From Deroplatys truncata (Eukaryota > Arthropoda > Insecta > Mantodea > Mantidae): DNA of 64,000 nt. Of the stretch, positions 6,189 to 43,278 are shown in pieces (within the stretch, counting starts at the first letter, position 1; each line of letters begins with the position of its first letter). The notes below the pieces were generated by a model. The model saw only the letters and a list, made by a program, of their open reading frames with translations. It had not been told where the DNA came from and ran no database searches. The translations under genes and the position numbers were made by a program. The stretch lies in contig CM060975.1 in the NCBI GenBank assembly GCA_030765065.1, positions 106,846,094 through 106,910,093 on the forward strand, given 5' to 3'.

Positions 6189-6796
6189 GCTGATGTAATT
6201 GAGTTTTTCCTCTAAAAGCACGGCGACTTACTTTCAGTTTCTTAATAGGAATAGATTCCACTTCCCTAAATATGTTCATAAGATTAGGAACTGTTTACCC
6301 GTGAGGCGCACGAACAATAGGGCATATGCCTATAAATTAACGTCTCACTTCTGTTCAAGAGTTTGTTGTCCCAGGAATCACGCATGAAAATTCTGTGTGC
6401 TGAAGTGGCATTACCTATAACAGCACCAACGCCCTATAACACTGAATAAAGTTCAGAACTTATCAACCTCTGTACAAGGTCTTCGCGTCAATTGATTAAC
6501 CGACCACGGCGAGGAGGGAAAGCGGAGAGGGGACAGAATCGGTTAGAAACAGCGCAGTGCAGGGCACGTAATTCCCCTTAATATGGATACACGTCGAAAC
6601 AAGACTATGTAGCAGGGCCGTATTTAGAGGGGGGTTTATAGGGTTCAACCCTCCCCCCGAAAATTCTGACAGTTTTATTTATTTCGATTCATAGCAAACC
6701 AACATGGGAAAATGTTATATAACAGCAAGTATATTGCTAGTAGCGCATTTACAAGAAAAAGGGAAACTTAATATCATCACCTTACATAGGCACGGT
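6189..6796. other. Left flank of the giant palindrome
   Basis: No gene recognised. A G/C-run patch at 6637-6660 (a G6 run followed by a C6 run) resembles the end of an unknown repeat. The last six bases, CACGGT (6791-6796), are the candidate target duplication of the palindromic element; the right flank has CACGCT at 23352-23357. Confidence 0.5.
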
Positions 6797-8020
6797 AGTA
6801 GGTTATATAGGACAGACCGAGGCCACTTTTTTGGGCATGTATGGGAAAGGATAGGGAAAACGAGGCTAGATGGGGCGGTTCAAGGAGGAAAATGGGTTTA
6901 TATGGGAGAGATAGGGAATACGACGACCAATACTATGCTAGACAGGGTTGAAGGAGGGAAATACGTTATATGGAAGAGATAGTAGAGAGCTGTTAGGCTA
7001 GACAGAGGCTGAGGAGCATGGTTTATATGAAAAGTATAGGAAAAACGAGGAGAGGTATTACACTAGACAGAGTTGAAGGGTAGAGTATGTCTTTTATATG
7101 AGAGCGGTAGGGAACAGGAGGAGGGGTGTTAGGCTAGACAGAGGTTGAAGGGTAGAGTATGTCTTTTATATGAGAGGTAGGGAACAGGAGGAGAGGTGTT
7201 AGGCTAGACAGAGTTGAAGGGTAGAGCTTATCTTTATATATGAGACAGTTAAGGAACAGGGGGTAGGGATGATAGGCTAGACAAAGGTCAAGAAGTAGAG
7301 TATGGTTTATATGAGATATAGGAAAACCAGGAGAGGTATTAGGCTAAGGAGGTTGGTATGCGTTTATAAGGAGAGACGAGTAAACGGAGAGATCCTATGC
7401 TAGGATAGACAGCTGTTAAAGGTAGAATGTGTTTTCTATAGGTTAGATAGGAACCCAAGGAGAGATACTCAGCTAGACAGGAGCAGGCGGGAAATGCGCT
7501 TTATGAGAGGCAAGGGATACGGGGGAGACGCTAGACTAGACAGAGGTTTAGAGTATGCGTTTATATGTATGAGGGATATAGGAACAGGAGGAGAGATATT
7601 AGGCTAAGGAGGTTGAGTAGCCGTTTATAAGGAGAGATGAGTAAACGAAGAGATCCAATGCTAGGATAGGCAGGTGCTAAAGGTAGAATGTGTTTTATAT
7701 ATGCTAGATAGGAACCCAAGGAGAGATAGACGGGGGGCAGGAGGGGAATGCGCTTATGAGAGGTAGGGGATACGAGGAGGGGTGTTAGGCTAGACAGAGG
7801 TAGAGGAGTAGAGTATGGTTTATATGAGAGGTATAGGGAAACGAGGAGAGTCGGTAGGCTAGACAGATAGTGAAGTAGTAGGAATATGGACTTATATACA
7901 GGAGATATAGGGAATAGGAGATGCTAGACCATGAAAGCGACTTTAGGCGAGAACTTCATGGAAATATGTTTCATGTCAATGTTAGAGCGCTAATTCTAGA
8001 CATGCTCATCACGTAACCTA
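6797..8020. repeat. Subterminal 70-bp tandem repeats, left arm
   Basis: Degenerate direct repeats with a 70-bp period, clearest at 7133 to 7203. Units start GCTAGACAGAGG, pass through TTTATATGAGAGG and end AGGAGAGGTGTTAG. About 17 units fill the outer 1.2 kb of the arm. They are purine-rich on this strand and the same block occurs inverted at the other end of the palindrome. No coding function is suggested. Confidence 0.85.
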
Positions 8021-8027
8021 TTCAGGG

Positions 8028-8975
8028 AAAAGGTGACTCGCTCAGGGGAAAAAGGTGACCAGGAAAGGGAAAAAGGAGAACCGCAAAGGGAAAAAGGTGA
8101 CCAGCAAAGGGAAAAATGTGACCAGCAAAGGGAAAAAGGTGACCAGCAAAGGGAAAAAGGTGACCAGCAAATGGAAAAAGGTGACCAGCAAAGGGAAAAA
8201 GGTGACCAGGAAAGGGAAAAAGGTGACCAGCAAAGGGAAAAAGGTGACCAGGAAAGGGAAAAAGGTGACCAGCAAAGGGAAAAAGGTGACCAGCAAAGGG
8301 AAAAAGGTGACCAGCAAAGGGAAAAAGGTGACCAGCAAAGGGAAAAAGGTGACCAGGAAAGGGAAAAAGGTGACCAGCAAAGGGAAAAAGGTGACCAGCA
8401 AAGGGAAAAAGGTGACCAGCAAAGGGAAAAAGGTGACCAGCAAAGGGAAAAAGGTGACCAGCAAACGGAAAAAGGTGACCAGCAAAGGGAAAAAGGTGAC
8501 CAGCAAAGGGAAAAAGGTGACGAGCAAAGGGAAAAAGGCGACCAGCAAAGGGAGAAACGTGACCAGCAAAGGGAAAAAGGTGACCAGCAAAGGGAAAAAG
8601 GTGACCAGCAAAGGGAAAAAGGTGACCAGCAAAGGGAAAAAGGTGACCAGCAAAGGGAAAAAGGTGACCAGCAAAGGGAAAAACGTTATCAGCAAAGGGA
8701 AAAAGGTGACCAGCAAAGGGGAAAAGGTGACCAGCAAAGGGAAAAACGTGACCAGCAAAGGGAAAAACGTGACCAGTAAAGGGAAAAAGGTGACCAGCAA
8801 AGGGAAAAAGGTGACCAGCAAAGGGAAAAACGTTACCAGCAAAGGGAAAAAGGTGACCAGCAAAGGGGAAAAGGTGACCAGCAAAGGGAAAAACGTGACC
8901 AGCAAAGGAAAAAACGTGACCAGTAAAGGGAAAAAGGTGACCAGCAAAGGGAAAAGGGCAGGGAAAAGGCGGTCC
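8028..8975. repeat. 21-bp minisatellite, left arm (~45 units)
   Basis: Tandem array of the 21-bp unit GACCAGCAAAGGGAAAAAGG plus T, with scattered variants. Because 21 is a multiple of three, long open frames run through it on both strands (for example repeated REKGDQQ or FPFAGHL peptides). These are periodicity artefacts rather than genes. The strand asymmetry (G/A-rich on plus) is strong. The right arm has the same array with roughly six fewer units. Confidence 0.95.
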
Positions 8976-9538
8976 TCTCACGGGAAAAGCTAACCCACTC
9001 ACACTAACAGGTAAGTAATTCAGTTAGTATCACAGGGTAGGACAGGTTCCGGGAAGCGGATATAGCATAGTTCCGTATGATGTTACAGGTAATTCAGAGA
9101 GTATCGTAGGTATTTAGGATAATTCAAGTAACATAGGTGTTTAAAGTCATTCAGCTAGTATCACAGGTACTCATGGTAATATAGAGAGTAATTAGATCAT
9201 AAACATTTCTTATCCAACGTTACAACAATTTATATACTTTTTTCTAAATCTTACAAACTTATTGTACGATGCGGAGAGGCATAAACGACATATTGATTCA
9301 CAAATTGAAAAGCTTTGCGTCAACATACATTTATTTAAGTTTGTTGTAGATGTCTCTCCCCTTTTATCTAGGCTTGAGACTAGCACTAGGATTGCTCCTA
9401 ATGGCAGGGTTACCACCTTCCCTTCCATCTTCTTCTTTCTTCATCAGGCGTCTGCTAGTTGCATATCAGTACACGGATAAACTTCATTTTTAACATTGTA
9501 GACTCACGAGAAAATCTCCATCTTCGACTTACATTCTC
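8976..9538. other. Region between minisatellite and PolB 3' end, left arm
   Basis: Contains short imperfect repeats of the type AATTCAG.AGTATC.CAGGTA at about 9008-9190, then the 3' untranslated region of the polymerase (minus strand). The complement of AATAAA lies at 9330-9335, about 205 bp past the polymerase stop, and is a plausible poly(A) signal. A 72-codon minus-strand frame (9210-9428) is mirrored in the right arm but lies in this 3' region, and I do not call it a gene. Confidence 0.5.
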
Positions 9539-12500
9539 TTAAGCACTATTTGTAATACTGTAATGTCCATACGCATAGGTAGTTATACCGTCCTCAGCAA
9601 TAATTCTTTTATCATCAAAGGGATTCAATGCAATTTTATTCACTTGCACTGTGGAAATAGCATGCTTTCGCGATAGGATTAGATTCATGGGCGTTCTGAT
9701 GATTTCAAAGGTTTTAAGACAATCAGTATAGCTGTCAAACGAAATGTACTGCTTAATAGCGCTACGTTTTATACCTTTAATCTTTTTTATCATTGAGCCT
9801 TGAATATCTAAGGCATACATCTTAGGACGTAGTCCAACAAAGCGTAGGATGATTTTGCTATTAGCCTCATCTTTAAATTTTCCCAATACCTTCTTGTTCT
9901 GAGTAGAGTGGCATATATGATTGACAGGCTAATCAGCTGTATCGAGATGCTCAAGAAAACGTAGCTTGTCCTGGTACACATCTTCAGTTGTAACACGATG
10001 AATGAACGAATCAGTGTCCATATACATAAGCTTCAGGTTTTCAGCTCCATAATAAGGCAACAACACGTCGTAATGATAGTTATACATTAATGTCTTAGAG
10101 ATGTCCAACACACTCATACCAATGTATATAGGCTTGTTGAACACAATCTGACGAGAGGCCATATGTACAGCAGCTAGATTAGCAGCATATATCGTCCTGT
10201 CGATAAACGTAGGCTTGGCGATCAGCTTCTCTAGAGTTTTTTCATTTGTCACCAGTCGTATATCCACACGGCTACGCAGGTTCTCCATAGATTTTCCAAA
10301 CATGGCGTTGTTAAAGAGCTTGTAGAGATCCTTCTCGAAATCATTTGCAGCTTGTTGTCGTAGCCTGTTGTTAAATTCCACATAAGGTTTCAACCACCGA
10401 GACTGTCGGAATTTTAGCACACGATGGATTTTTGTTAGTCGTAGTCCATGACTAAGAGCTTGCTTCAAAGCCATGTAATGCACTACATACTTCTTTCGAG
10501 GTCCAAGATGAGGTATCAGTTTCTTTGTAGATTATTCCAATGGTTTCATACACTCTGGCAGGAACGGTAGATCGTTGTGTAGATCGTGAAGTTCAGTAGG
10601 ATACTCGATGTCGACTTCTAATATGTACCCATGAGGATCATCTTCTTGTAGTGTTTCTAAGTTGATTTCTTCTGGTGACACCCACTGAAATCCACCAAAA
10701 GGAAGGGCGTGACACATTGCCCACCCATATTGGTTATTAGCGTCCTCGTATGTGATAAATTGGGTTGGTCTCGACGGATCAAACTTATCCATATAAGTGT
10801 TATTAGCCTCAGCATACCGATGGGAAACTTGGCATAAACCTCCTCTTATACCTGATTCCACCATAAGTAGTTGATCATAATCTTGTAACAGTTCCAGCTT
10901 AATTCCAGTATACAGTAACATGGCGTCCCATGTAAGACCTGGAGAGGTAAAATAATGGGCAGGATCAACTTTGTGTGTTTTAAGGGTTTGCTCTCTGAAC
11001 GTCTCAAAGACATCAGCTAGGAGAAGTACATCCGAAGTTAAGTAGAGATCGCTGTACTCTCCCAGGTTTCTCACATTAAACAGCTCCCATACATTTCTAG
11101 CATGATCGTAGTCAGTATCAGTAATTTCTTCTTCATTTAATCTATTGTAGAAGTAGTCCTTAGGAGGCAAGCAGGTCTCGTTCAGGACATCCCATGACGT
11201 AACAAAATCATAGGGAAATACACCCTTACGGGTCATCAACTTCAATTTGTCTTCTCCAAAGTACTTTAGCGTTTCAGGATACGAGGTTAGATTTTTTACC
11301 AACTTATCCAAGCTTGTACTGAGGAATCGGAAGCTATCCACAAATCGAAGCTTTATATCTCCTACATACTTGGTGAATGAGATATAGCTTTCTTCAGAGT
11401 TAGGAATTACCTCCACACGTTCACTTGTACAACCCAGCTCCTTAACAATGAAATGAGAGTCATATTCGCTAAGGTTATGCATGAAGACTGGTATATATTT
11501 AGGTGTTTTACAGGCTAAATTACATTCATTATGAAGACTTCCACGATATTCACCGCTGATGTGATCATGGTCGCGTACTTTATAGTTCTCTTCTGTAAAG
11601 GGTTTTCCACACAAGTAGCATGCTGAAGAAGACTCAAAATCCATCTGCTGTTGATCTGTAAGTTTCAGAGGCTTAGCAGATTTGTATATGTCATCAATCA
11701 TTTTTGCAAGAGATGTCAGGTACAGCATAAACTTCTGAGCAGCATCAGCACCACGATACACATAGGGTTGCTTAGGAAGACCAGTTTCGAGATGTTCAAC
11801 GTTGGTTGATGGTTTAACGTAAACACAGAAGCTCATTGGTGTGTGCTCTTGATAAGGGGTTGTATAGGAAGTTTCAGGATTGGGTGTACATGTATGGCAT
11901 GGAGTGAGAATACTCTCAAAATCCGCATAAATGACATAAGGTACTTTCAGCATCCTCTCAACATTTTTAAACTGTACAATTGCTTTCTCCTTGGTAGGCA
12001 TAACTACCCTTGCAACACCATGTTGATTACAGATGGTTGCATGTTCTTGTAGTTTTTCCTGTCCACTTTGTCCATATCGATTGTCAAAGTGTGTAAAGCA
12101 CCGCTTACTGGTATATATCACTCCATCATGCTTAGTTTTTTGACGTCGAACGAGCTTCTCAAAATTCTTGATATATACGTAGTGATGTTTTCCACAACTG
12201 TCACTCAATAGTAGCAGGTCACGATGTTCAGGTAGTTCAATATCAGCAACCTTTATTGGATACACCTCATGCTTCTCATCTAGACCGAAAACGTTAATAG
12301 ATATCTTGTTAAGCTTCTCAAATTTAGGTATTTGAGAAAGTGGAGTAGGATAGTAAACACAGCTGAAGTCGTACTTATCTTGAAGTTGCTTGTATTTGCT
12401 GACGCGTTGAGGCTTGGTGCTGACGAATTTGGCCAGTATAGAGTACATGAAACATTTCTCGTCGATAAAGTTCTGAATGTTTATACACGCTTCTTTAGCT

Positions 12501-13192
12501 CCGACAGATGACGGTAGACTTATGTAGCTACTTCCTCGTAACGGGTTGTACTTGTTGATACGAAGTCGAACTCCTTCCACAGCAAGTAGGGCCAAGCTGC
12601 TATCCTTAAGCTGAGACTCCTCCATTTCAGTCACCAATTTCTTGAATTTCACTTCCATCGCTGACTCCAGATCAGTTTCCAGGAAAACAGCTTGATTCCG
12701 TGTTTTAAATGTTTTGTCACAGGTTTCTCCAATACTGTTAACAAATCGACACTCAACCAGCAGATTAATTTTAACACTCTTGTGAATACCAAGCTCTTTA
12801 TGCACAGCCTGGATTATCCGTTGTTTTGCCTCTTGCAGATACATATTCAGGTCCTTAGGTGACTCGCATCGTATAAAATACGATTTCAATCGTCCTTCGA
12901 ATGAAGTTTCGTATTCTTTCATATCACAGTCCTCCATTGTTGACAGTAACTGATGTTTAGTTGGCTCCAATCTTCTTTTCTTCTGAGGACTGCTTATTTC
13001 ACATATATCTTCGTGTCGCTGGCCCTTACAACCATCATTGAAGGTCAAGCTACAATGTTTACATTTGAAGAGCTTCTTGCAGCTCATCTCGTGTCTTCTC
13101 TTGTGATAACCTCGCAGGAACTTCTTCCCACATTTTCCGCATGCATATCCAGTAGCGCTTGGAATAATATCCTTATACGCTGAGTTATTCAT
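9539..13192 (-). pseudogene. Protein-primed family B DNA polymerase, left copy (two nonsense mutations)
   Basis: One reading frame of 1217 codons, interrupted by two stops and no frameshift. Domains by residue: paired C2H2/C2HC zinc fingers at 18-64 (CGKCGKKF, CKHCSLTF); exonuclease I YADFES 422-427; a CxxC...RDHDH...HNEC endonuclease VII/HNH-like motif 525-557; exonuclease II HNLS.YDSHF near 572; exonuclease III YLTSDVLLLADVFE 717-730; polymerase motif A YEDANNQYG 815-823; motif B NNAMFGK near 961-967; motif C MYMDTDSF 1056-1063. These mark the organellar/viral PolB (DNA_pol_B_2) family, which copies linear DNA from a protein primer. The stops lie near 10532 (a serine codon became TAA) and 9929 (a tyrosine codon became TAG). 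I chose the ATG at 13190-13192 because the right arm has a stop in the upstream extension. Catalytic residues look intact, but the gene as it stands is broken. Confidence 0.93.
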
Positions 13193-13560
13193 CTTTATTC
13201 TTGATGTAATAACGTATAAATCCTTCTTCAAGGGAAATGTAGACCTCTTCACCTTGATATCACTTATAAAGCTGATTATTCTTGGAGAGAACACAATGTT
13301 AACACCTCAAGGCTAATTAGCACAATGAAGTCCAATACCCTAGATCACCATATTTATAGAGGGAGCACGAACCTTTTAGATCAATCATAAACTCGCTCCA
13401 TAACTAGCTGTATATGCTTGCTCCACGCGTATTAACCTCACGCCCAGAGTCAGGATGCCTATGATGTCACACCCAGAGACAGGATGTCTGGCAGTATCAA
13501 ACACGTTTAAACTCGTCTCGTAACTACATGTATATGCTGTCACACCAACAAGAGAAGTAT
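13193..13560 (-). promoter_or_regulatory. PolB promoter region, left arm
   Basis: Reading the minus strand toward the polymerase, TATAAATA (13351-13358) lies about 160 bp before the ATG. Upstream are two imperfect copies of a module containing CCCAGAGTCAGGATG or CCCAGAGACAGGATG (about 13441-13490), and a twice-used motif of the form AACTAGCTGTATATGC or AACTACATGTATATGC. The same arrangement is mirrored in the right arm. Promoter role is inferred from position and the TATA motif. Confidence 0.6.
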
Positions 13561-13839
13561 TCCCACACGCTCATTCAGTCAGAGGTTCCATTCAAAGCCT
13601 ACCACCCCCCATTACACCAAAGCTAATACAATCTCTATTATCAAAATACTTAAAAGTAAAGGCTTAAAAGGTAACGTAGAAGATTTTCCTCCTTATTTAC
13701 TTAAATGTGTGTATATACTACATTATTTCATGTTTTCATCCCCTTTTCAATTCTTCCTTTCCATCTTCTTCCAGAAAGACCATTACATTTCACTACAATC
13801 ACGAGAAAAGCAATTTTTCCAGTGTTTCACAGATTCTAA

Positions 13840-14975
13840 GCTTCTAGAATCGAACCCGGTAATAGTTTTAATAAATGTATTTTTAGTAATTTAGCTCCCT
13901 CACATCAGCATCTACCATTTAATCTTTACTCGAACCTGATAGGATTCATAGGCTTGAAGATATATGAAATCACCCCTTCGGGATTCGATCTGAGTACTTT
14001 AAAGTACTTTTTGTCATGATAACGATATTTAGGAACTAGGTACTCTGTTTACGGTTTACTTGACGTGTCTATATAAATTAGATTACGAGTTATTAAATTA
14101 GCAAGTAAATTTCATTAAATCGGTATTCGAACCCAGAACACCAGGAACAAAATAATTTATAATATTAGCTTGACATGTTAAACAAAGCTGTGTGCAGTTA
14201 CGCTATCAAGCCAAGTGATATATTCTAGTGTACGGAGGAAAATTAAGGAACTCATTAAAAGATGGGGAATCGAACCAAGCACAACTGATTGACAATTGTA
14301 TACAACATTAATTACCTATTATAATAGCTATCAAACATGCTTTGGCCTACTCCTCTACCTCATTTAGTTCCAGAGATAATGAATATTTAAAATTAAGAAT
14401 CGAACTCAGGAGACCAGATCCCCAAGTATAGATTCAGAAGAAACTACCTATTGATCTAAATGTAATAAAGTTTATTTGACGTCTCTATCTTAAGTAGTTT
14501 AGGAGTTATTAAATTTATAATTGAATTACATTTTATCGGTATTCGAACCCAGAACACCAGAAACAAAATTATTTATAAACTTAGTTTGCTATGTTAAAGA
14601 GAGTTGTATACAGTTACGCAATCAATCTAAGTGATATATTCTAGTATACAGAGAAAAATTAAGGAAATCATTTAAAAATCGGGATTCGAACTAGGGACAA
14701 ATGTTTGAAAATTATATACAGTATTAATTACGCATTATAACAGCTATCAAACATGCTTTGGTACATCCCTCTACCTTTCTTAGTTTCCGAGATAATGGCG
14801 ATTTAAAAATTAAAGATCGAACCCAGGACACCAGGTACCCAAATATACATTCAGAAGAAACTACCTAATGATATAAATGTAATACAGTTTATTTGGCGTC
14901 TTTATCTTAATTAGTCTCTGAGTTATTAGAAGTTGAATTTGTAATTACTCGTGGGATTCGAACCCAGGCATCCCG
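13840..14975 (-). repeat. B-box-like (tRNA-like) array, left arm
   Basis: Nine occurrences of a motif resembling the tRNA TpsiC arm / RNA polymerase III B box (complement of GGTTCGANTCC) lie near 13851, 13986, 14124, 14269, 14399, 14540, 14686, 14816 and 14955. Spacing is 130-146 bp and units two to seven form a three-unit higher-order repeat of about 417 bp. Clear tRNA cloverleafs are not evident; only the B-box half is well kept. Function unknown. Confidence 0.7.
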
Positions 14976-15090
14976 GTCAACTCGGGTTAATATCCCAAGG
15001 ACGCGGCGCATTCCAAGGAATTGATTAGTTTTTATCCCATTGTTCTATCTTTTTTCATTCAGGAGATATAAGCAATTAATCAGTAGGGGG

Positions 15091-15178
15091 AGAATAAGAG
15101 AGCTGGCCCACTTAATATGCATGGAATGCAATTAATATGCTAATAACCCCACCCTACTAATTAGCCCCCCTCTCATTT
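15091..15178. other. Palindrome centre (spacer between arms)
   Basis: The arms match up to CAGTAGGGGG (ending 15090) and its complement (starting 15179). The 88-bp spacer is asymmetric and contains two direct copies of TTAATATGC around GGAATGCA (about 15112-15140), a possible small hairpin. This is the turnaround point expected if the element is an inverted dimer. Confidence 0.75.
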
Positions 15179-15289
15179 CCCCCTACTGATTAATTGCTTA
15201 TATCTCCTGAATGAAAAGAGATAGAACAATGGGATAAAATCTAATCAATTATTTGGAATGCGCCGCGTCCTTGAGATATTAATCCGAGT

Positions 15290-16430
15290 TGTCCGGGATG
15301 CCAGGGTTCGAATCCCACGAGTAATTACAAATTCAACTTCTAATAACTCATAGACTAATTAAGATAAAGACGCCAAATAAATTGTATTACATTTATATCA
15401 TTAGGTAGTTTCTTCTGAATGTATACTTGGGTACCTGGTTTCCTGGGTTCGATCTTTAATTTTTAAATCGCCATTATCTCAGAAACTAAGAAAGGTAGAG
15501 GGATGTACCAAAGCATGTTTGATAGCTGTTATAATGTGCAATTAATACTGTATATAATTTTCAAACAGTTGTCCCTAGTTCGAATCCCGATTTTTAAATG
15601 ATTTCCTTAATTTTTCTCTGTATACTAGAATATATCACTTAGATTGATTGCGTAACTGTATACAACTCTTTTTAACATAGCAAACTAAGTTTATAAATAA
15701 TTTTGTTTCTGGTGTTCTGGGTTCGAATACCGATAAAATGTAATTTAATTATAAATTTAATAACTCCTAAACTACTTAAGATAGAGACGTCAAATAAACT
15801 TTATTACATTTATATCAACAGGTAGTTTCTTGCGGATCTATATTTGGGGATCTGGTGTCCTGAGTTCGATTCTTAATTTTAAATATTCATTATCTCTGGA
15901 ACTAAATGAGGTAGAGGAGTAGGCCAAAGCATGTTTGATAGCTATTATAATAGGTAATTAATGTTGTATATAATTGTCAATCAGTTGTGCTTGGTTCGAT
16001 TCCCCATCTTTTAATGAGTTCCTTAATTTTCCTCCGTACACTAGAATATATCACTTGGCTTGATAGCGTAACTGCACACAGCTTTGTTTAACATGTCAAG
16101 CTAATATTATAAATTATTTTGTTCCTGGTGTTCTGGGTTCGAATACCGATTTAATGAAATTTACTTGCAAATTTAATAACTCGTAATCTAATTTATATAG
16201 ACACGTCAAGTAAACCGTAAACAGAGTGCCTAGTTCCTAAATATCGTTATCATGACAAAAAGTACTTTAAAGTACTCAGATCGAATCCCGAAGGGGTGAT
16301 TTCATATATCTTCAAGCCTATGAATCCTATCAGGTTCGAGTAAAGATTAAATGGTAGATGCTGATGTGAGGGAGCTAAATTACTAAAAATACATTTATTA
16401 AAACTATTACCGGGTTCGATTCTAGAAGCT
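15290..16430 (+). repeat. B-box-like (tRNA-like) array, right arm
   Basis: Mirror of the left array, here readable on the plus strand. B-box-like motifs (GGGTTCGAATCCC, GGGTTCGATC, AGTTCGAATCCC, GGGTTCGAATACC and others) occur near 15304, 15444, 15577, 15718, 15863, 15992, 16136, 16279 and 16412. Units at 15444/15577/15718 recur at 15863/15992/16136 with offsets of 419, 415 and 418 bp, showing the three-unit period. Whether they bind TFIIIC or are transcribed is unknown. Confidence 0.7.
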
Positions 16431-16739
16431 TAGAATCTGTGAAACTCTGGAAAAATTGCTTTTCTCGTGATTGTAGTGAAATGTAATGGTCTTTCTGGAA
16501 GAAGATGGAAAGGAAGAATTGAAAAGGGGATGAAAACATGAAATAATGTAGTATATACACACATGTAAGTAAATAAGGAGGAAAATCTTCTACGTTACCT
16601 TTTAAGCCTTTACTTTTAAGTATTTTGATAATAGAGATTGTACTAGCTTTGGTGAAATGGGGGGGGGTGGTAGGCTTTGAATGGAACCTCTGACTGAATG
16701 AGCGTGTGGGAATACTTCTCTTGTTGGTGTGAAAGAATA

Positions 16740-17079
16740 TACATGTAGTTACGAGACGAGTTTAAACGTGTTTGATACTGCCAGACATCCTGTCTCTGGG
16801 TGTGACATCATAGGCATCCTGACTCTGGGCGTGAGGTTAATACGCGTGGAGCAAGCATATACAGCTAGTTATGGAGCGAGTTTATGATTGATCTAAAAGG
16901 TTCGTGCTCCCTCTATAAATATGGTGATCTAGGGTATTGGACTTCATTGTGCAAATTAGCCTTGAGGTGTTAACATTGTGTTCTCTCCAAGAATAATCAG
17001 CTTTATAAGTGATATCAAGGTGAAGAGGTCTACATTTCCCTTGAAGAAGGATTAATACGTTATTACATCAAGAATAAAG
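16740..17079 (+). promoter_or_regulatory. PolB promoter region, right arm
   Basis: TATAAATA at 16914-16921 is followed 32 bases later by an initiator-like TTCATTG (A at 16946), giving a 5' untranslated region of about 135 bases before the ATG at 17080. Upstream lie the duplicated CCCAGAG(A/T)CAGGATG-type modules in inverted notation (about 16788-16832). A stop codon lies in the reading frame between promoter and ATG, which supports 17080 as the start. Confidence 0.65.
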
Positions 17080-20000
17080 ATGAATAACTCAGCGTATAAG
17101 GATATTATTCCAAGCGCTACTGGATATGCATGCGGAAAATGTGGGAAGAAGTTCCTCCGAGGTTATCACAAGAGAAGACACGAGATGAGCTGCAAGAAGC
17201 TCTTCAAATGTAAACATTGTAGCTTGACCTTCAATGATGGTTGTAAGGGCCAGCGACACGAAGATATATGTGAAATAAGCAGTCCTCAGAAGAAAAGAAG
17301 ATTGGAGCCAACTAAACATCAGTTACTGTCAACAATGGAGGACTGTGATATGAAAGAATACGAAACTTCATTCGAAGGACGATTGAAATCGTATTTATAC
17401 GATGCGAGTCACCTAAGGACCTGAATATGTATCTGCAAGAGGCAAAACAACGGATAATCCAGGCTGTGCATAAAGAGCTTGGTATTCACAAGAGTGTTAA
17501 AATTAATCTACTGGTTGAGTGTCGATTTGTTAACAGTATTGGATAAACCTGTGACAAAACATTTAAAACACGGAATCAAGCTGTTTTCCTGGAAACTGAT
17601 CTGGAGTCAGCGATGGAAGTGAAATTCAAGAAATTGGTGACTGAAATGGAGGAGTCTCAGCTTATGGGTAGCAGCTGGGCCCTACTTGCTGTGGAAGGAG
17701 TTCGACTTCGTATCAACAAGTACAACCCGTTACGAGGAAGTAGCTACATACCTCTACCGTCATCTGTCGGAGCTAAAGAAGCGTGTATAAACATTCAGAA
17801 CTTTATCGACGAGAAATGTTTCATGTACTCTATACTGGCCAAATTCGTCAGCACCAAGCCTCAACGCGTCAGCAAATACAAGCAACTTCAAGATAAGTAC
17901 GACTTCAGCAGTGTTTCCTATCCTACTCCACTTTCTCAAATACCTAAATTTGAGAAGCTTAACAAGATATCTATTAACGTTTTCGGTCTAGATGAGAAGC
18001 ATGAGGTGTATCCAATAAAGGTTGCTGATATTGAACTACCTGAACAACGTGACCTGCTACTATTGAGTGACAGTTGTGGAAAACATCACTACGTATATAT
18101 CAAGAATTTTGAGAAGCTCGTTCGACGTCAAAAAACTAAGCATGATGGAGTGATATATACCTGTAAGCGGTGCTTTACACACTTTGACAATCGATATGGA
18201 CAAAGTGGACAGGAAAAACTACAAGAACATGCAACCATCTGTAATCAACATGGTGTTGCAAGGGTAGTTATGCCTACCAAGGAGAAAGCAATTGTATAGT
18301 TTAAAAATGTTGAGAGGATGCTGAAAGTACCTTATGTCATTTATGCGGATTTTGAGAGTATTCTCACTCCATGCCATACATGTACACCCAATCCGGAAAT
18401 TTCCTATACAACCCCTTATCAAGAGCACACACCAATGAGCTTCTGTGTTTACGTTAAACCATCAACCAACGTTGAACATCTCGAAACTGGTCTTCCTAAG
18501 CAACCCTATGTGTATCGTGGTGCTGATGCTGCTCAGAAGTTTATGCTGTACCTGACATCTCTTGCAAAAATGATTGATGACATATACAAATCTGCTAAGC
18601 CTCTGAAACTTACAGATCAACAGCAGATGGATTTTGAGTCTTCTTCAGCATGCTACTTGTGTGGAAAACCCTTTACAGAAGAGAACTATAAAGTACGCGA
18701 CCATGATCACATCAGCGGTGAATATCGTGGAAGTCTTCATAATGAATGTAATTTAGCCTGTAAAACACCTAAATATATACCAGTCTTCATGCATAACCTT
18801 AGCGGATATGACTCTCATTTCATTGTTAAGGAGCTGGGTTGTACAAGTGAACGTGTGGAGGTAATTCCTAACTCTGAAGAAAGCTATATCTCATTCACCA
18901 AGTATGTAGGAGATATAAAGCTTCGATTTGTGGATAGCTTCCGATTCCTCAGTACAAGCTTGGATAAGTTGGTAAAAAATCTAACCTCGTATCCTGAAAC
19001 GCTAAAGTACTTTGGAGAAGACAAATTGAAGTTGATGACCCGTAAGGGTGTATTTCCCTATGATTTTGTTACGTCATGGGATGTCCTGAACGAGACCTGC
19101 TTGCCTCCTAAGGACTACTTCTACAATAGATTAAATGAAGAAGAAATTACTGATACTGACTACGATCATGCTAGAAATGTATGGGAGCTGTTTAATGTGA
19201 GAAACCTGGGAGAGTACAGCGATCTCTACTTAACTTCGGATGTACTTCTCCTAGCTGATGTCTTTGAGACGTTCAGAGAGCAAACCCTTAAAACACACAA
19301 AGTTGATCCTGCCCATTATTTTACCTCTCCAGGTCTTACATGGGACGCCATGTTACTGTATACTGGAATTAAGCTGGAACTGTTACAAGATTATGATCAA
19401 CTACTTATGGTGGAATCAGGTATAAGAGGAGGTTTATGCCAAGTTTCCCATCGGTATGCTGAGGCTAATAACACTTATATGGATAAGTTTGATCCGTCGA
19501 GACCAACCCAATTTATCACATACGAGGACGCTAATAACCAATATGGGCGGGCAATGTGTCACGCCCTTCCTTTTGGTGGATTTCAGTGGGTGTCACCTGA
19601 AGAAATCAACTTAGAAACACTACAACAAGATGATCCTCATGGGTACATATTAGAAGTCGACATCGAGTATCCTACTGAACTTCACGATCTACACAACGAT
19701 CTACCGTTCCTGCCAGAGTGTATGAAACCATTGGAATCATCTACAAAGAAACTGATACCTCATCTTGGACCTCGAAAGAAGTATGTAGTGCATTACATGG
19801 CTTTGAAGCAAGCTCTTAGTCATGGACTACGACTAACAAAAATCCATCGTGTGCTAAAATTCCGACAGTCTCGGTGGTTGAAACCTTATGTGGAATTTAA
19901 CAACAGGCTACGACAACAAGCTGCAAATGATTTCGAGAAGGATCTCTACAAGCTCTTTAACAACGCCATGTTTGGAAAAACTATGGAGAACCTGCGTAGC

Positions 20001-20732
20001 CGTGTGGATATACGACTGGTGACAAATGAAAAAACTCTAGAGAAGCTGATCGCCAAGCCTACGTTTATCGACAGGACGATATATGCTGCTAATCTAGCTG
20101 CTGTACATATAGCCTCTCGTCAGATTGTGTTCAACAAGCCTATATACATTGGTATGAGTGTGTTGGACATCTCTAAGACATTAATGTATAACTATCATTA
20201 CGACGTGTTGTTGCCTTATTATGGAGCTGAAAACCTGAAGCTTATGTATATGGACACTGATTCGTTCATTCATCGTGTTACAACTGAAGATGTGTACCAG
20301 GACAAGCTACGTTTTCTTGAGCATCTCGATAAGGCTGATTACCCTGTCAATCATATATGCCACTCTACTCAGAACAAGAAGGTATTGGGAAAATTTAAAG
20401 ATGAGGCTAATAGCAAAATCATCCTACGCTTTGTTGGACTACGTCCTAAGATGTATGCCTTAGATATTCAAGTCTCAATGATAAAAAAGATTAAAGGTAT
20501 AAAACGTAGCGCTATTAAGCAGTACATTTCGTTTGACAGCTATACTGATTGCCTTAAAACCTGTGAAATCATCAGAACGCCCATGAATCTAATCCTATCG
20601 CGAAAGCATGCTATTACCACAGTGCAAGTGAATAAAATTGCATTGAATCCCTTTGATGATAAAAGAATTATTGCTGAGGACGGTATAACTACCTATGCGT
20701 ATGGACATTACAGTATTACAAATAGTGCTTAA
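17080..20732 (+). pseudogene. Protein-primed family B DNA polymerase, right copy (frameshift plus two stops)
   Basis: Same gene as the left copy, 3653 bp against 3654 bp. Lesions differ from those of the left copy. One T is lost near 17393 (frameshift after the KSYL segment), a glutamate codon became TAA near 17544, and a glutamine codon became TAG at 18297. From 18318 to 20732 the frame is open for 804 codons and holds the exonuclease motifs, the endonuclease VII/HNH-like cysteine/histidine cluster, and polymerase motifs A, B and C (MYMDTDSF near 20247). Roughly 15-20 amino-acid differences from the left copy are visible, one in motif A (W to R next to NNQYG). It points outward, away from the palindrome centre. 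A poly(A) signal AATAAA at 20936-20941 follows. Decay looks neutral. Confidence 0.93.
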
Positions 20733-21300
20733 GAGAATGTAAGTCGAAGATGGAGATTTTCTCGTGAGTCTACAATGTTAAAAATGAAGTTTATCCGTGT
20801 ACTGATATGCAACTAGCAGACGCCTGATGAAGAAAGAAGAAGATGGAAGGGAAGGTGGTAACCCTGCCATTAGGAGCAATCCTAGTGCTAGTCTCAAGCC
20901 TAGATAAAAGCGGAGAGACATCTACAACAAACTTAAATAAATGTATGTTGACGCAAAGCTTTTCAATTTGTGAATCAATATGTCGTTTATCCCTCTCCGC
21001 ATCGTACAATAAGTTTGTAAGGTTTAGAAAAAAGTATATAAATTGTTGTAACGTTGGATAAGAAATGTTTATGATCTAATTACTCTCTATATTACCATGA
21101 GTACCTGTGATACTAGCTGAGTGACTTTAAACACCTATGTTACTTGAATTATCCTAAATACCTACGATACTCTCTGAATTACCTGTAACATCATACGGAA
21201 CTATGCTATATCCGCTTCCCGGAACCTGTCCTACCCTGTGATACTAACTGAATTACTTACCTGTTAGTGTGAGTGGGTTAGCTTTTCCCGTGAGAGGACC
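20733..21300. other. Region between PolB 3' end and minisatellite, right arm
   Basis: Mirror of 8976-9538: polymerase 3' untranslated region with AATAAA at 20936-20941, then short repeats with TAATACC/TGATACT-like blocks. The 72-codon open frame at 20843-21061 matches the left-arm one but is not supported as a gene. Confidence 0.5.
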
Positions 21301-21312
21301 GCCTTTTCCCTG

Positions 21313-22110
21313 CCGTTTTCCCTTTGCTGGTCACCTTTATCCCTTTACTGGTCACGTTTTTCCCTTTGCTGGTCACGTTTTTCCCTTTGCTGGTCACCTT
21401 TTCCCCTTTGCTGGTCACCTTTTTCCCTTTGCTGGTAACGTTTTTCCCTTTGCTGGTCACCTTTTTCCCTTTGCTGGTCACCTTTTTCCCTTTGCTGGTC
21501 ACCTTTTTCCCTTTGCTGGTCACCTTTTTCCCTTTGCTGGTCACCTTTTTCCCTTTGCTGGTCACCTTTTTCCCTTTGCTGGTCACCTTTTTCCCTTTCC
21601 TGGTCACCTTTTTCCCTTTCCTGGTCACCTTTTTCCCTTTCCTGGTCACCTTTTTCCCTTTGCTCGTCACCTTTTTCCCTTTGCTCGTCACCTTTTTCGC
21701 TTTGCTGGTCACCTTTTTCCCTTTGCTGGTCACCTTTTTCCCTTTGCTGGTCACCTTTTCCCTTTGCTGGTCACCTTTTTCCCTTTCCTGGTCACCTTTT
21801 TCCCTTTGCTGGTCACGTTTTTCCCTTTGCTGGTCACCTTTTTCCCTTTGCTGGTCACCTTTGTCCCTTTGCTGGTCACCTTTTTCCCTTTGCTGGTCAC
21901 TTTTTTCCCTTTGCTGGTCACCTTTTTCCCTTTGCTGGTCACCTTTTTCCCTTTGCTGGTCACCTTTTTCCCTTTGCTGGTCACCTTTTTCCATTTGCTG
22001 GTCACCTTTTTCCCTTTGCTGGTCACATTTTTCCCTTTGCTGGTCACATTTTTCCCTTTGCAGGTCACCTTTTTCCCTTTCCTGGTCACCTTTTTCCCCT
22101 GAGCGAGTCA
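21313..22110. repeat. 21-bp minisatellite, right arm (~38 units)
   Basis: Inverted counterpart of the left array, unit CCTTTTTCCCTTTGCTGGTC plus A on this strand. It has several units with CCTGGTC or CTCGTC variants and one short unit near 21754 that shifts frame. Unit number differs from the left arm by about six, which accounts for most of the length difference between the arms. The encoded repeat peptides are artefacts of the 21-bp period. Confidence 0.95.
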
Positions 22111-22139
22111 CCTTTTCCCTGAATAGGTTACGTGATGAG

Positions 22140-23351
22140 CATGTCTAGAATTAGCGCTCTAACATTGACATGAAACATATTTCCATGAAGTTCTCGCCTA
22201 AAGTCGCTTTCAAGGACTAGCATCTCCTCTTCCCTATATCTCCTGTATATAAGTCCATATTCCTACTGCTTCACTATCTGTCTAGCCTACCGACTCTCCT
22301 CGTTTCCCTATACCTCTCATATAAACCATACTCTACTCCTCTACCTCTGTCTAGCCTAACACCCCTCCTCGTATCCCCTACCTCTCATAAGCGCATTCCC
22401 CTCCTGCCCCCCGTCTATCTCTCCTTGGGTTCCTATCTAGCATATATAAAACACATTCTACCTTTAGCACCTGCCTATCCTAGCATTGGATCTCTTCGTT
22501 TACTCATCTCTCCTTATAAACGGCTACTCAACCTCCTTAGCCTAATATCTCTCCTCCTGTTCCTATATCCCTCATACATATAAACGCATACTCTAAACCT
22601 CTGTCTAGTCTAGCGTCTCTCCCCGTATCCCTTGCCTCTCATAAAGCGCATTTCCCGCCTGCTCCTGGCTAGCTGAGTATCTCTCCTTGGGTTCCTATCT
22701 AACCTATAGAAAACACATTCTACCTTTAACAGCTGTCTATCCTAGCATAGGATCTCTCCGTTTTCTCGTCTCTCCTTATAAACGCATACTCAACCTCCTT
22801 AGCCTAATACCTCTCCTGGTTTTCCTATATCTCATATAAACCATACTCTACTTCTTGACCTCTGTCTAGCCTATCATCCCTACCCCCTGTTCCTTAACTG
22901 TCTCATATATAAAGATAAGCTCTACCCTTCAACTCTGTCTAGCCTAACACCTCTCCTCCTGTTCCCTACCTCTCTCATATAAAAGACATACTCTACCCTT
23001 CAACCTCTGTCTAGCCTAACACCCCTCCTCCTGTTCCCTACCGCTCTCATATAAAAGACATACTCTACCCTTCAACTCTGTCTAGTGTAATACCTCTCCT
23101 CGTTTTTCCTATACTTTTCATATAAACCATGCTCCTCAGCCTCTGTCTAGCCTAACAGCTCTCTACTATCTCTTCCATATAACGTATTTCCCTCCTTCAA
23201 CCCTGTCTAGCATAGTATTGGTCGTCGTATTCCCTATCTCTCCCATATAAACCCATTTTCCTCCTTGAACCGCCCCATCTAGCCTCGTTTTCCCTATCCT
23301 TTCCCATACATGCCCAAAAAAGTGGCCTCGGTCTGTCCTATATAACCTACT
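22140..23351. repeat. Subterminal 70-bp tandem repeats, right arm
   Basis: Inverted counterpart of the left subterminal block: units containing CTCTCATATAAA, CTACC and CTCTGTCTAGCCTAACACC at about 70-bp intervals up to the outer end ATAACCTACT (23351). The next six bases, CACGCT (23352-23357), are the candidate target duplication. Confidence 0.85.
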
Positions 23352-24936
23352 CACGCTGACCATACATCCCAGTTTTTGAAGCAGTCTCCATGTTTTGTGC
23401 TGTAATGTAGAATATCTTCATTCTGGTGAGTTTTTCTTGTCTATATAATGTTTCCAAGCAATTTTCTTATCCATGTAACGTCTATATACTACGGGGTAGG
23501 TACATGGTAACTGTGTGGGGTACTGTTAAGTTTAGGTCTAGTTGTGGAAACCCCCCCTCCGAAAATCGTTTCTGGGTACGGGCATGCTCTGTAGATTATT
23601 TTGCATTAAAGAACTCACTGCATTCGATCTCGCATACCACTTTAAAAATAAATCAAGCAACACTTTAATATATAACCAGTGAATTTTGAATGCAATTGTG
23701 GCGTTTTCCTGCCCCTGACTGGAACAAGGTCATTCTAGGTATCGTTCTACTAGTGGCAGGGAGCAGTTCAATAATTATTAAACGTGAACTAAAAGTCAAC
23801 ATATTTTTTTCTACTGCATAATGTATTTATGAATATGCGTTAAATTAAATTGGTTCTAGAATAACGCGGCATTTTTAATATGTCCTCTCGGTCCACTGCC
23901 AAATTCGTTCTATAGTAAATTAAAACATACAAGCCATTCAACATATCCCGGAAGAACAAACAAAATATTCTACAAGAAAAAAGTCAACATACTCAATGTG
24001 AACTACTGCTAGTGATGAAAATAATCACGAACCGTGATCCGTTTCAGTACCTTCTTTTATAAAGTTGCAAAGACAAATCCTTCAAAATAGCTAGGTAAAA
24101 GCTGTTAAACGGCTGTGTTAGTGACACTCTACGGTAGCTACAAACGGTAATATCAGCCGCTCTCGCTGATAGGCAAAACAAAGCAGATTGGTGCATACTT
24201 CGGTGGATCTCAGTGTATTGCGTACATTTATACTGTTGATGAAGCCTATATTTTTGAACAGATGTTTAAACCTATTATAAAAAAGCAGAATATGAGATGG
24301 TCTATTTAACCTTAGAATAAAACCATAACTAACAAAACTAACGATGTTATTTTTTACTTCATCGCATTCAGTACATGTAAGTACGTGCACACACACTTTC
24401 AAGTCAGGTGCGCACTTTAAAATGTATTTAGGTACTACGAGGCCAGTTCTGTATGGTGAAACATGGATTACGGAACTGGGCTTGAGTGGACACAAAATCC
24501 TGTTTGTTTATTATTTCTGGGCAATACAATATGCATTAATATTTCCATTTGGTTCTGAACTCCCAAAGTAACAATGCATTCGGCGCTTATTAATGATATC
24601 ACACAAGTATCCATATTCAAAATACGAGTGAATATTCAAGCCGCTTAACTCTGCCTAAAACCCTTAACAAGATAACAACCCTGGCGAGATTACAAAATGC
24701 ATTCTAGTCATTTCCTGTACGTGTTGTTTCATGTAAATAAGTATTATAATGGGCGGTAAGTTATCTCCCTATTGAGCTGGAAAATAAGGAAAAATGTGGA
24801 AACGACGTGCGCAAAGTGATCAAGGAAGAAAAATTACAGAATTGAGTATTAAGTGACCCACTAAAACGTCGATGAAATCTTCAAATAGTCACATTCCTTT
24901 TTTCATTAAGAAAATTCTTTATGGTTTAATTCATTT
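23352..24936. other. Unassigned sequence right of the palindrome
   Basis: AT-rich with no recognisable gene. A short C-run patch at 23548-23560 followed by CTCCGAAAATCG resembles the G/C patch left of the palindrome (6640-6665), but both may simply be fragments of one common repeat. Confidence 0.4.
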
Positions 24937-25825
24937 TAACTTTCTCTACTACGTATAGTAAGCAGGGGAAGTATTGCATTCCACCCAAAAATTCGATACC
25001 GAGATTTCACCGGAAATACATGTTTTGAGACCTCCTGAATCCAAAAAAAGCATTTTTGGGAAACATGTCCGTGTGTGTGTCTGTGTGTGTGTGTGTGTCT
25101 GTGTGTGTGTGTGTCTGTGTGTCTGTGAACAGCATAACTCAAAAACAAACAGTCGGATAAGCACCAAACTTGGTATTTAGGTTCAGTATCTTCCAGAGAT
25201 GCAACACGAAGGTTTTCAAGAAAATCCCCCCACCCCAGACTACCCTTTGCATGGAAGATTTTTCGAAAATTTTAATTTTCTCAAAAATGGCTCTAACGAT
25301 TTTGATGAAAATATCATATGTTTAAGATAATGTCATGAGAAATGAAATGTATATCTCGAATTTTCTGGAAATGTCTCCAAAAGTATTCTTCATTGTGAAC
25401 GACTTTTGCATAACTGGTAAACCATAACAGATAGACAAAATGTTACTACACAAAAAATGTAGATCGCGTTAAAATACAGAACTTATGTCATATACATTTC
25501 TTTTGTTGAGTGAACCGTTTTCGAGATATTGCTTGTTATTTCCTTAAATTTTCCAATACTTATACTTTTTCTCAAATTCGTTATTCATTTTTTTATGTCC
25601 TGGACATGCAAAGAGAATGGAATGCGCCACATAGCAACCAGCGTTAAAATATTTGACTATCGCTTAAAAGCTACCATACTCCCCTTGCATCTACATGAAT
25701 ATTACCAATAAGATTGACATCTCGATATCTCGATTAACATGAAGGATATGGAGAATAAGCGTTTGTAAAATTAGATTGTACAAGAGTAGAGAAAGTCATG
25801 TGAGTGTAACACATCAGATTTTTTC
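24937..25825 (+). repeat. Dispersed ~0.9-kb repeat, copy C (complete)
   Basis: Best complete copy. CTTTCTCTACT near 24940 is mirrored by AGTAGAGAAAG at 25785-25795. A GT/CT-rich microsatellite lies at about 25069-25130. The end CATCAGATTTTT is shared with the other copies. No transposase is encoded; it fits a non-autonomous DNA transposon. Confidence 0.88.
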
Positions 25826-33888: not shown

Positions 33889-36800
33889 TTATATACTTTT
33901 ATATAAATTTATGCTTTTAAAAAATTCAACTGCCTTAGGGTACATCGAATAGTCGAGTGTTGTTTGTAAATCATTGGCTATCTGATAGGGTTGTCTCCAT
34001 TGATCGTATTGTGGACATTCTACGATTATGTGTTTCGTCGTTAACAGTATCTTACGCTCGTGACAGATGGGTAGTTGGTCCTTTGAAAGAAGATGAATGT
34101 GTGTGATCTTTTTATGGCCCATTTTCAGTCGGGACATTAAAACCTGATCTTGTCCTTAAAGAGGATTATTGGGAAGATGTGTCGAAAAACTTGATATTAT
34201 ATCACGCAGTTTGCTTCTCGTGGAGTCAAGCCATCTTGTCTTCCACTGTAGACAGCTTCTCTTCCACTGTAGACAGAGCTTCCCTTCAATGGTTGAGATA
34301 GCATCATAGTTATAGTTGGATCACCTAGTGGATGTTTAGTGATTGGCAATTCGTTGCCTTGTATTCCAGTGTGGGATGGGATCCATATTAAAGGCTCTTG
34401 CTTTGTTTGCTTATTGGTTCTATGAAGGAGTGATTGAGATTCTTGTGTAAGGATATGGGTAGATGATAGATTGTTTATTGCAAGTAGTGAACTTTTAGAA
34501 TCTTAGTATATAACAAATAAGTTTGAGCACAGAGTATTCAAAACATAAATCACAGCTTGTTTAATTGCAAACAGTTAACTTGAGAACCTGTACAAAAATC
34601 GGAAGTCTGATTAACATAGCATGGTCTGGATAAACAACAACACAAGCACTTTTATCATTACACTTTGATCCATCTGTGTAAATTGCTGAATGGTTTCTAT
34701 ATTTGTCATGTAATTCATTAAATAGTTGGCGATAAACTGAGAAATGCATGTGTTCTTTGGAGACGATGTTCAGTTATAAGTTTGTTTTAGGTGGAGTGAT
34801 TGTCCAGGGTGGAATAGTAAAAGAGGAGTTTATTTGTGCCACAGGAGATATTTGGAGACTCTCAGATATAAGGGTATTATTAATGATCTTTTGACGACTT
34901 CTTAGGTCTTTAATGAAATATATACCTTTTCATTCGAGAATCGGACATCGTCGCTATCTTGAGGACATATTTTAAAGTCAATTTTTTTTCTAGCTTCAAG
35001 TAGAGGTTCATTTGTTTCTATTCGTATGCTTGCCGTCGTGCCGGTACAAACAGCTCCAAGTGTTATACGAAGTTCTGTGGTATGTATTGAATCCAACATT
35101 TGGAGAGAAGAAGGTCTTGCACAATTGTAAACAATCACCATAATCCAATTTTGCTCTAATAAATGCTTTGTAGGTGTTTAACAGCAAATGATAATCCAGT
35201 TTTTGGCCGCTAGGATTTTCATAACGTTCAACCTCTTGCGACAGTCATCTTTAGGACCTTTAAGATGATGTTTCCAGTTTAATTCGCTATCAAAGGTTAT
35301 CCCCAGGATCATGATTTTCTTATGTAGTTCAAGCTTTCGGTTGTCGATATACAGTTTAGACTCTGTATCATTACACCTGCTTTTAGAGAAGCAAACACAT
35401 TTAGAACTAGTCTTTGAAAGCTTAAACCCTCTAACTTCCGCCTACTTTTGAATCTTTAAATTTGTCTCTTGCAGCAGTTGTTGAATTGTATCAATGTTTT
35501 TTCCTGTACATGATAAAATAAGGTCATCTCCAGAAAGATCTACTTTAACAGATGGTGATATGTTTGAAACAATGTTATTTGTGGTTATTAGAAACAATGC
35601 TACACTGCTAACTGATCCTTGAGCTACTCCATTTTTTACTGTGAATTTCTTTGATAGAACCCGACTTACTCTAACTTGAATTTGTCGATCCTGAAGAAAG
35701 TTGGTTAAGAACTATACTATATTTTCTGAAACATATCTCTTTAGAACGTCAACAATATAATCTTTTTCTACCGTGTCGTATGCTTTTTTTAATATCTAGA
35801 CTAACTAGTACTCAGAAATGTTGTTGATAAAAGCATTCTGAATTTCACTTTATAGACATATGAGATTATCTGAAGTTGAGTGTGCTTCCCTAAATCCACT
35901 TGTACGCTGTTAAAGAATTTGATGTTTTCAAGACACCATCATAGTCTCTTATTAACTGCCCTTTCTAGTAGTTTACACACAGTGTTAGAGCAATTGGACG
36001 ATAACTTTCTGTAATCTAATCTTTTTCTGGTTTCAGTATTGGGATTACAATAGCAGAATGCCATTGGTTAGGAAATCATTTTGAAGTCCACATGATATTA
36101 TAGATTGTTAGAAGGTAATTTTATGCAATAAATGGAAGCTTTTTGATGAAATCATAAAGTATGAAATCTGGACCGGGGTAGGATTCTCACATTTGTCTAG
36201 CTTGTTTCGTAATTCTCGAAGTTGGAGTTCATCGGTTAGAAAGCGGCCGTTATCAGAGAGGTTAGTTTGTGATACTGTAGCCTCACTCGTAATCAAAAGT
36301 TGGAGCTATTCGAGATTCTGGCAAATTCATTTGCAAGCGCATCAGCTATGTGTTGATTTTCATTTATAAAGGTTCCAGTAATTTAATTTCTAAGGGCTGT
36401 GACACGGAATTGATTATATTTTCCAGCTATTCCTTTGATTTTGTCCCACACTATTTTGGAGGGTGTTTCTGTTGTCAAGTGTGAGACAAATGATATCCAG
36501 GAATCTCTCTTACTTTTTTGATAACTTTACGAGATGTTGCTCTGTATTTCTGATAATTTAGTTTGTTTTCAGGTGTAGGTTACCTATTATAAAGATAAAA
36601 ATATGGTTTTTATTCTTTATAGCAATTTTGCAGGTTTCATTCACAGGAATCTTTTCCTTTGAAGCAGGCATCTTCAAATTGGACGATGACTTTTGTAAAG
36701 TCGTGTACGATGTTTATAATGTGTTTTGTAAAAAATGTTCAGATGTTAGGCTTTTTTATGAGATTAGTACTGCATCTCTGAACTTGTGCCAGTCAGCTCT

Positions 36801-43025: not shown

Positions 43026-43077
43026 TACAATACAAGGACATGTTTATGTTTTTATCTCTATATGTTAGCTCATAACA

Positions 43078-43216
43078 TTTTTACTTTCTCTAATACGTAT
43101 AGTAAGCATGGGAAGTAGACATTGTCTTCCACCCAAAAATTCGGTACCGAGATTTCACCGGAAATATATATTTTAAGGCCCCCTGAATCCAAAAAAAGCA
43201 TTTTTGGAAACATGTC

Positions 43217-43278
<62 letters not shown>

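Follow-up and report, generated by a model that had tools for sequence, protein, structure and literature searches.

What kind of mobile unit leaves behind a palindrome of about 16.5 kb with a DNA polymerase gene in each arm? The question is raised by a locus in the mantis Deroplatys truncata, within a stretch of 64,000 nucleotides (GenBank assembly GCA_030765065.1, contig CM060975.1, positions 106,846,094 to 106,910,093 of the forward strand), which is referred to here as the window and in which two head-to-head copies of an element with a family B DNA polymerase gene (PolB) occupy positions 6797-23351. The answer that we favour, and consider rather probable, is that this is an aging copy of a PolB-only family derived from Mavericks (Polintons), with a mobile unit that is itself a near-perfect palindrome of ~16.5 kb, which is copied by way of a snap-back hairpin and depends on a Maverick integrase for its insertion. 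As far as sequence can tell, the unit is palindromic and present in many copies, with ends that start AGTAG, 6-bp target duplications and a PolB gene under selection. By the same measure, the arms of a copy are near-identical at insertion, a relative has a new centre, and a Maverick-type integrase gene is present in the genome. From these features we infer a hairpin intermediate, protein priming, mismatch repair and an integrase that acts in trans.

The palindrome and its polymerase genes

The two arms, at 6797-15081 (minus strand) and 15188-23351 (plus strand), are mirror images with ~98 % identity over ~8.2 kb each, as found both by self-BLAST and by alignment of one arm to the other. The self-alignment called for by a preliminary description of this locus reproduces the palindrome at 97.7-98.1 %: 8150-22120 matches its own reverse complement at 98.1 %, and 21316-23351 matches 8829-6797 at 97.7 %. 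Identity of 98 % over an 8-kb inverted repeat is far beyond chance. It stays at 95-100 % per 200 alignment columns, except at both ends of the alignment and in the 21-bp tandem arrays. The inverted repeat makes up ~99 % of the element, and there is no unique interior between terminal inverted repeats such as Polintons/Mavericks have. Arms of more than 8 kb had been described on either side of an 88-bp spacer. The arms are as described; the 88 bp, however, sit within a longer centre of 106 bp (15082-15187, plus strand), which runs from AGTAG to CTACT and is predicted to fold into a three-way hairpin. From the outside inwards, each arm comprises an AGTAGG terminus, imperfect repeats of 72/141 bp, a 21-bp array, the PolB gene, which faces outward, and non-coding repeats over ~1.9 kb.

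The description of one outward-facing PolB per arm is borne out by a DNA_pol_B_2 match (PF03175), with an Endonuclease_7 match (PF02945) inside the gene, in each arm, although both copies are broken. The left gene (9539-13192, minus strand) is interrupted by two in-frame stops, and its open pieces end at 10532 and 9929. In the right gene (17080-20732, plus strand), the frame shifts near 17.4 kb, in-frame stop codons interrupt it ahead of 17547 and again ahead of 18300, and the part from 18300 to 20732 (810 aa) is open. None of the disabling changes is common to the two genes. The PF03175 match (E 3.2e-27 in the right arm) identifies a family B DNA polymerase of the protein-primed type, as in Polintons/Mavericks, with priming presumed from homology. 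The translation carries recognisable exonuclease and polymerase motifs of PolB and what we take to be the cysteine/histidine pair of a viral OTU-like domain. In the PolB of Polintons, the order of domains is given as terminal-protein, OTU-like, exonuclease and palm in the available text of PMC11071308.

In the wider family, the PolB frame, of 1225 or 1226 codons, is intact in 20 of 31 arms. Judged by its ratios of non-synonymous to synonymous substitution (dN/dS), PolB is under purifying selection: the ratio is ~0.17 between subfamilies (68 divergent pairs of intact ORFs, i.e. open reading frames), 0.14-0.16 for the 12 most divergent of these and 0.20 over all 14 full arms. For comparisons between the two arms of a copy it is 0.66, the 5 stop changes being treated as replacements.

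Searches of the ORFs and of Pfam found no integrase, ATPase, protease or capsid gene in the arms, the insides of other copies having been read in part; the retroviral-like integrase gene that Mavericks carry is likewise missing from the arms, as are a parvovirus-type capsid gene beside PolB, which would point to a bidnavirus, and Rep. Three short frames other than PolB lie outside the tandem arrays. They encode 76, 60 and 93 aa, and of the 14 arms 12, 14 and 12, respectively, keep them open. Their dN/dS ratios are 0.65, 1.20 and 0.68, none of them has a Pfam match that passes the cut-off, and they resemble frames that arise by chance. PolB had been described as the only recognisable gene, and this holds in that PolB is the sole frame of the arm under clear selection and no partner gene was matched, with a reservation for these three frames. 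The 76-aa frame lies directly after PolB (20831-21061, with a mirror in the left arm), a weak hint that may reflect a small gene or chance. Relatives were not found in collections of viral contigs, genome contigs and plasmids, nor among PDB sequences, and a search of phage sequences returned endonuclease VII pieces only.

A many-copy family with Maverick-like ends

The host assembly (4.29 Gb in 818 contigs, with chromosome-scale contigs that include one of 707 Mb) contains many related copies. For a query made from a piece of PolB, the best 56 of 27,918 candidates were scored; these are 96-100 % identical and fall into 20 outward-facing pairs and 16 single matches. With 550 bp of the outer end as query, the best 40 of 6129 candidates were scored, and 32 of the 40 form 16 facing pairs that are 7.5-17.4 kb apart. 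For the centre, scoring of 40 of 1308 candidates led to 42 matches, almost all of them at other loci. Merging the three lists yields at least 91 loci, which is a lower bound because only the best candidates were scored. Most of these loci were read in part, and the copies read are the top-scoring ones. Subfamilies differ strongly across the outer kilobase. Along the arm, the identity of W_R to C16_3014_R and C14_1846_R switches between ~80 % and 100 % in blocks, and such jumps suggest recombination between subfamilies.

Both outer flanks were compared for 21 copies. Target duplications of 6 bp are exact in 18 of them and agree at 5 of 6 positions in the other three, which include the window copy (CACGGT at 6791-6796 and CACGCT at 23352-23357). 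As a control, flanks of different copies were paired, and this gave 1 match in 210. Among the 18 exact duplications, that of C16_2634 is weak, as it sits in a TATATA run. The left terminus of the window copy (6797-6856, plus strand) starts AGTAGGTTATATAGG, the same at both ends. An AGTAG start is common to the examined copies and extends to AGTAGG in nearly all copies read, i.e. AGT once and then AGG. Vertebrate Mavericks are described, in the available text of PMC8097293, as having 6-bp duplications and ends that are mostly (AGT)2 or (AG)3. Because 6-bp duplications flank 21 copies whose ends start AGTAG, the palindrome is, on this evidence, the transposing unit.

Maverick-type genes are present elsewhere in the genome. 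There are 38 matches to a Pox_A32-type ATPase at E 0.001 or better and, by the listed coordinates, none of the 38 lies inside a locus found with the PolB query. At C16:175.63-175.64 Mb (L108/L109), the neighbour of a Pox_A32 ATPase is a Phospholip_A2_4 ORF that also matches Adeno_PX below cut-off, an rve integrase ORF and a broken related PolB are found within ~7 kb, and the gene set fits within a stretch of ~8 kb. The broken PolB is 41 % and 47 % identical to the window PolB in two aligned pieces. With ATPase, phospholipase A2-like, rve and PolB genes together at this locus, Maverick-type modules share the genome with the palindromic family.

The idea, raised in the preliminary description, of a plasmid-like molecule that was integrated as a dimer is not supported, as the palindrome is no one-off dimer but the usual mobile unit of a many-copy family; the Maverick-like ends, the 6-bp target duplications and the Maverick-type gene set also count against it. 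The inverted dimer of a PolB-only element is itself upheld by the mirror arms and by the finding of no Maverick partner genes inside the boundaries. Related copies with integrase or capsid genes inside the same boundaries, which would have refuted that description, were not seen among the top-scoring copies, most of which were partly read.

Origin of the symmetry

In the reading that we favour, replication of a linear form would start at its identical ends and be carried out by the element's own protein-primed PolB. Being self-complementary, the single strand displaced in this process would snap back into a hairpin of ~8.2 kb with the ~100-nt centre as its folded loop, and copying round this loop together with mismatch repair in the stem would make the arms identical. 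The duplex would then be inserted, with duplication of 6 bp of target, by an integrase of the Maverick type, which Mavericks in this genome probably provide in trans. From then on each arm would gather its own mutations, so that the divergence between the arms would serve as a clock. Turn-around replication had already been named as a likely source of the symmetry, and it gains support from arms that appear to have been near-identical at insertion.

Arms were compared over the ~3.7 kb PolB region, for which 31 arms and 11 complete pairs were available. By distance, the partner arm is the nearest relative in most of the 11 pairs, with 0 differences to the partner and 11 to the next arm in C2_928, 4 and 33 in C16_4194, and 12 and 49 in C15_761. 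It is not the nearest in the window copy and in C1_2875, and in C16_6598 there is a tie at 2 differences. In the tree, the arms are sisters in 9 of the 11 pairs, eight with support of 94-100 and the window pair with 72. Only 4 of 80 substitutions between the arms of one copy have both states in other copies, which indicates that arm differences are almost all new in place and that the arms appear to have been identical when inserted. The same subfamily-specific outer end is present on both arms in each of the 5 pairs read over the full arm length. Mismatches between centre edges (of 18 positions) number 2.9 within a copy and 5.9 between copies (n = 20).

One locus, L098 (C7:217404900-217412560), has the outer 2 kb and the 21-bp arrays as in the window and a 6-bp duplication (TACCTC), and no PolB match was found in it. 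Both of its arms hold ~640 bp without a match in the window, 98-100 % alike per 100 columns, around a ~106-bp centre of its own. In the captured part, an ORF from one arm only passes straight through the centre, and there is a BED-finger match (E 0.0023) that falls below the curated cut-off. Fold-back copying would be expected to place a single capture in both arms, as seen at this one locus.

The 20 complete centres are 99-113 bp long, and two further centres are 110 and 111 bp. The centre edges of the window copy pair as an imperfect stem, and for 18 related centres a stem and two inner hairpins are predicted by the RNAalifold consensus derived from the same 18 sequences. This structure pairs 92.9 % of cells, compared with 27-49 % for slid partners, and includes 32 double-changed cells, a number reached by 0 of 500 shuffles. 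Folded singly, the window centre has a z score of -4.35 and that of C12_871 one of -8.72. C15_789 and C16_3014 share an unrelated 99-bp centre with the same AGTAG edges, and part of this type of centre is also found in C11_887.

More tentatively, with rather more doubt than confidence, we suggest a lineage of hairpin-replicating transposons, with a self-complementary genome, one polymerase gene, an obligate palindrome whose symmetry is rebuilt in each cycle, a folded turn-around centre of ~100 nt and the ability to capture foreign DNA into two arms at once. If such a lineage exists, a mechanical constraint on the fold-back would account for the centre length of 99-113 bp, which recurs in three unrelated types.

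Three other interpretations of the centre were set aside. The centre starts AGTAG and ends CTACT like an independent short transposon, but 7 of 8 fetched centre matches have these mirror arms on either side (37-38 of 38 bases mirrored; the eighth, L111, is one-sided, with 17 of 38). For an origin from the outer end, a 17-of-18 match between the window centre and the end of another copy was found to be cherry-picked; when centre edges were compared with the ends of their own copy, p was below 0.05 in 2 of 16 tests, and in 1 after the first 6 bases were dropped. Orientation of the spacer was dropped as evidence of flip-flop, since insertion orientation is arbitrary.

That the arms of a copy are usually sisters would also be seen if they were homogenised after insertion by chromosomal gene conversion, as in the palindromes of the Y chromosome, while the element was copied as an ordinary duplex; some pairs, e.g. 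C16_4194 and C2_928, do have a disabling change common to both arms. We consider this unlikely. Changes private to single arms number 14 and 14 in the window copy with 1 shared, and 5 and 10 in C1_2875 with none shared, a pattern that identical arms decaying apart after insertion would explain and continuing conversion would not. The stops in the two window arms also differ in position, and conversion leaves the new palindrome around captured DNA at L098 unexplained. Nor does it seem that an old palindrome has been passed on faithfully as a whole, with arms that are alike only because the family is young. Low overall divergence inside subfamilies fits this account; however, faithful propagation would carry arm differences from copy to copy, whereas both states are found elsewhere for only 4 of 80, and the matching outer-end types on both sides and the closer centre edges within copies also make it very unlikely.

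The Maverick-like ends, the target duplications and the Maverick-type genes in the genome could also belong to a non-autonomous derivative, in which an internal deletion has left a Maverick with very long terminal repeats that full-length Mavericks move, its own PolB being unused; copies with a truncated PolB (L099-L101) have spread as well. But intact PolB frames in 20 of 31 arms and purifying selection would not be expected of an unused gene, and we regard this derivation as decidedly unlikely. Long-read libraries can yield fold-back chimeras, and reads of this kind might be assembled as palindromes. Such an artefact is hardly credible here and was rejected: unlike flanks are linked by 6-bp duplications, exact or at 5 of 6 positions, at 21 loci, the centres are non-palindromic and recurrent, and the arms carry private changes.

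Several observations weigh against hairpin copying of a Maverick-derived unit. The arms of C1_2875 are apart in the tree, those of C16_6598 form a three-member clade together with C14_1846_R (its partner arm was left out), and those of C16_2634 differ from each other by 6, while one of them differs from another copy by 7. Several copies have asymmetric deletions in which the inner part of one arm has been lost next to the centre, indicating that the integrated palindrome is unstable; long palindromes are unstable in general, so loss of inner arms is expected. Copies with a truncated PolB have spread, L099-L101 sharing one deletion junction (arm positions 1630/4507), and the dN/dS of PolB is less low, at 0.34, among close copies. 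The three short frames beside PolB might still be genes. The predicted structure of the N-terminal 886 aa of PolB has a pLDDT (predicted local distance difference test) score of only 28, and the priming domain is accordingly assumed from homology. In the centre, the number of pairs changed on both sides was reached by 43 of 500 shuffles and that of further pair types by 14 of 500, and covariation is no proof of an acting fold, because equalisation of the arms would equalise the stem edges too. PolB is not intact in the Maverick-type set on C16, and the ~8 kb read there showed no capsid gene, no genome-wide search for capsid or protease genes having been made. Supply of the integrase in trans is a guess, and the extrachromosomal form is a supposition about an element known here from an assembly.

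Related systems and further features of the window

Polintons/Mavericks resemble the family in their protein-primed-type PolB, 6-bp duplications and AGT/AG-type ends (PMC8097293, in the text available), and in the host genome a PolB whose aligned pieces are 41-47 % identical lies close to genes for an integrase and an ATPase. They differ in that here the arms yielded no gene for an integrase, ATPase, protease or capsid, nearly all of the element is inverted repeat, PolB is present twice, and the ends are AGTAGG instead of strict (AGT)2. The yeast pGKL hairpin plasmid is a protein-primed linear replicon that gives a hairpin form, and derivatives of kalilo and pGKL are similar to the family as linear protein-primed replicons that turn into hairpins and inverted dimers. 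These derivatives are, as far as is known, sporadic defective forms in fungi, whereas here there is a many-copy integrated family with a selected PolB, known from the assembly. In parvoviruses a three-way hairpin occurs and the strand can fold back upon itself, and both features are predicted here; unlike theirs, the hairpin is central and not terminal, and neither Rep nor a parvoviral capsid gene was found in the arms. The available text of PMC11071308 cites a title on a kalilo deletion derivative forming hairpin and duplex DNA, and states that bidnaviruses carry a Polinton-type PolB. Teratorn has long inverted repeats and additional terminal repeats at the boundary to its unique region (PMC6431247, in the part available), but it is a herpesvirus-piggyBac fusion of 41-182 kb and was not seen to share a gene with the present family. 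Foldback/Galileo elements are described as having inverted repeats that are very long and repetitive inside (PMC3573991, likewise in part); Galileo has a P-element-type transposase in contrast to the PolB found here. Among the open-licence texts listed, no title or displayed abstract was found to report a palindromic or inverted-duplicate Polinton family, which is not proof of absence.

If the favoured reading is correct, a PolB-only palindromic family would show what a polymerase and ends suffice for. Strand turn-around would be recorded in sequence, and each insertion would have a built-in clock like the two long terminal repeats (LTRs) of a retrotransposon. Several groups of eukaryotic DNA viruses and plasmids trace back to Mavericks, whose replication has, to our knowledge, hardly ever been observed. 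The family also adds many 8-kb inverted repeats to the genome, a known source of instability.

The repeats of the arms have features of their own. Imperfect tandem repeats of 72/141 bp were located in the left arm at 7014-7346 with Tandem Repeats Finder, and the right arm has repeats of 72/143 bp at 22800-23157. The 21-bp array has 44 copies in the left arm (8024-8955) and 38 in the right (21316-22120), and its length varies among arms and copies. Because its unit length is divisible by three, several reading frames stay open through the array, on either strand. The inner repeats have a period of 416 bp in the right arm (15341-16219), and the left arm has the mirror set (13930-14990). GGTTCGA motifs, which resemble the T-arm of tRNAs, are spaced along both; a tRNA array in the inner arms was rejected, as no tRNA model or Rfam match was found.

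Outside the palindrome, a dispersed repeat is present in three copies (24933-25615, 43077-43811 and 45787-46520) with 85-89 % identity. A non-LTR-type endonuclease (Exo_endo_phos_2) and a Tc1/Sleeping-Beauty-type transposase (HTH_SB, with a match below cut-off) have left remnants at 36756-37346 and 40299-40841, and a tandem array of a 76-bp unit, with 15.6 copies matching at 92 %, occupies 59514-60690.

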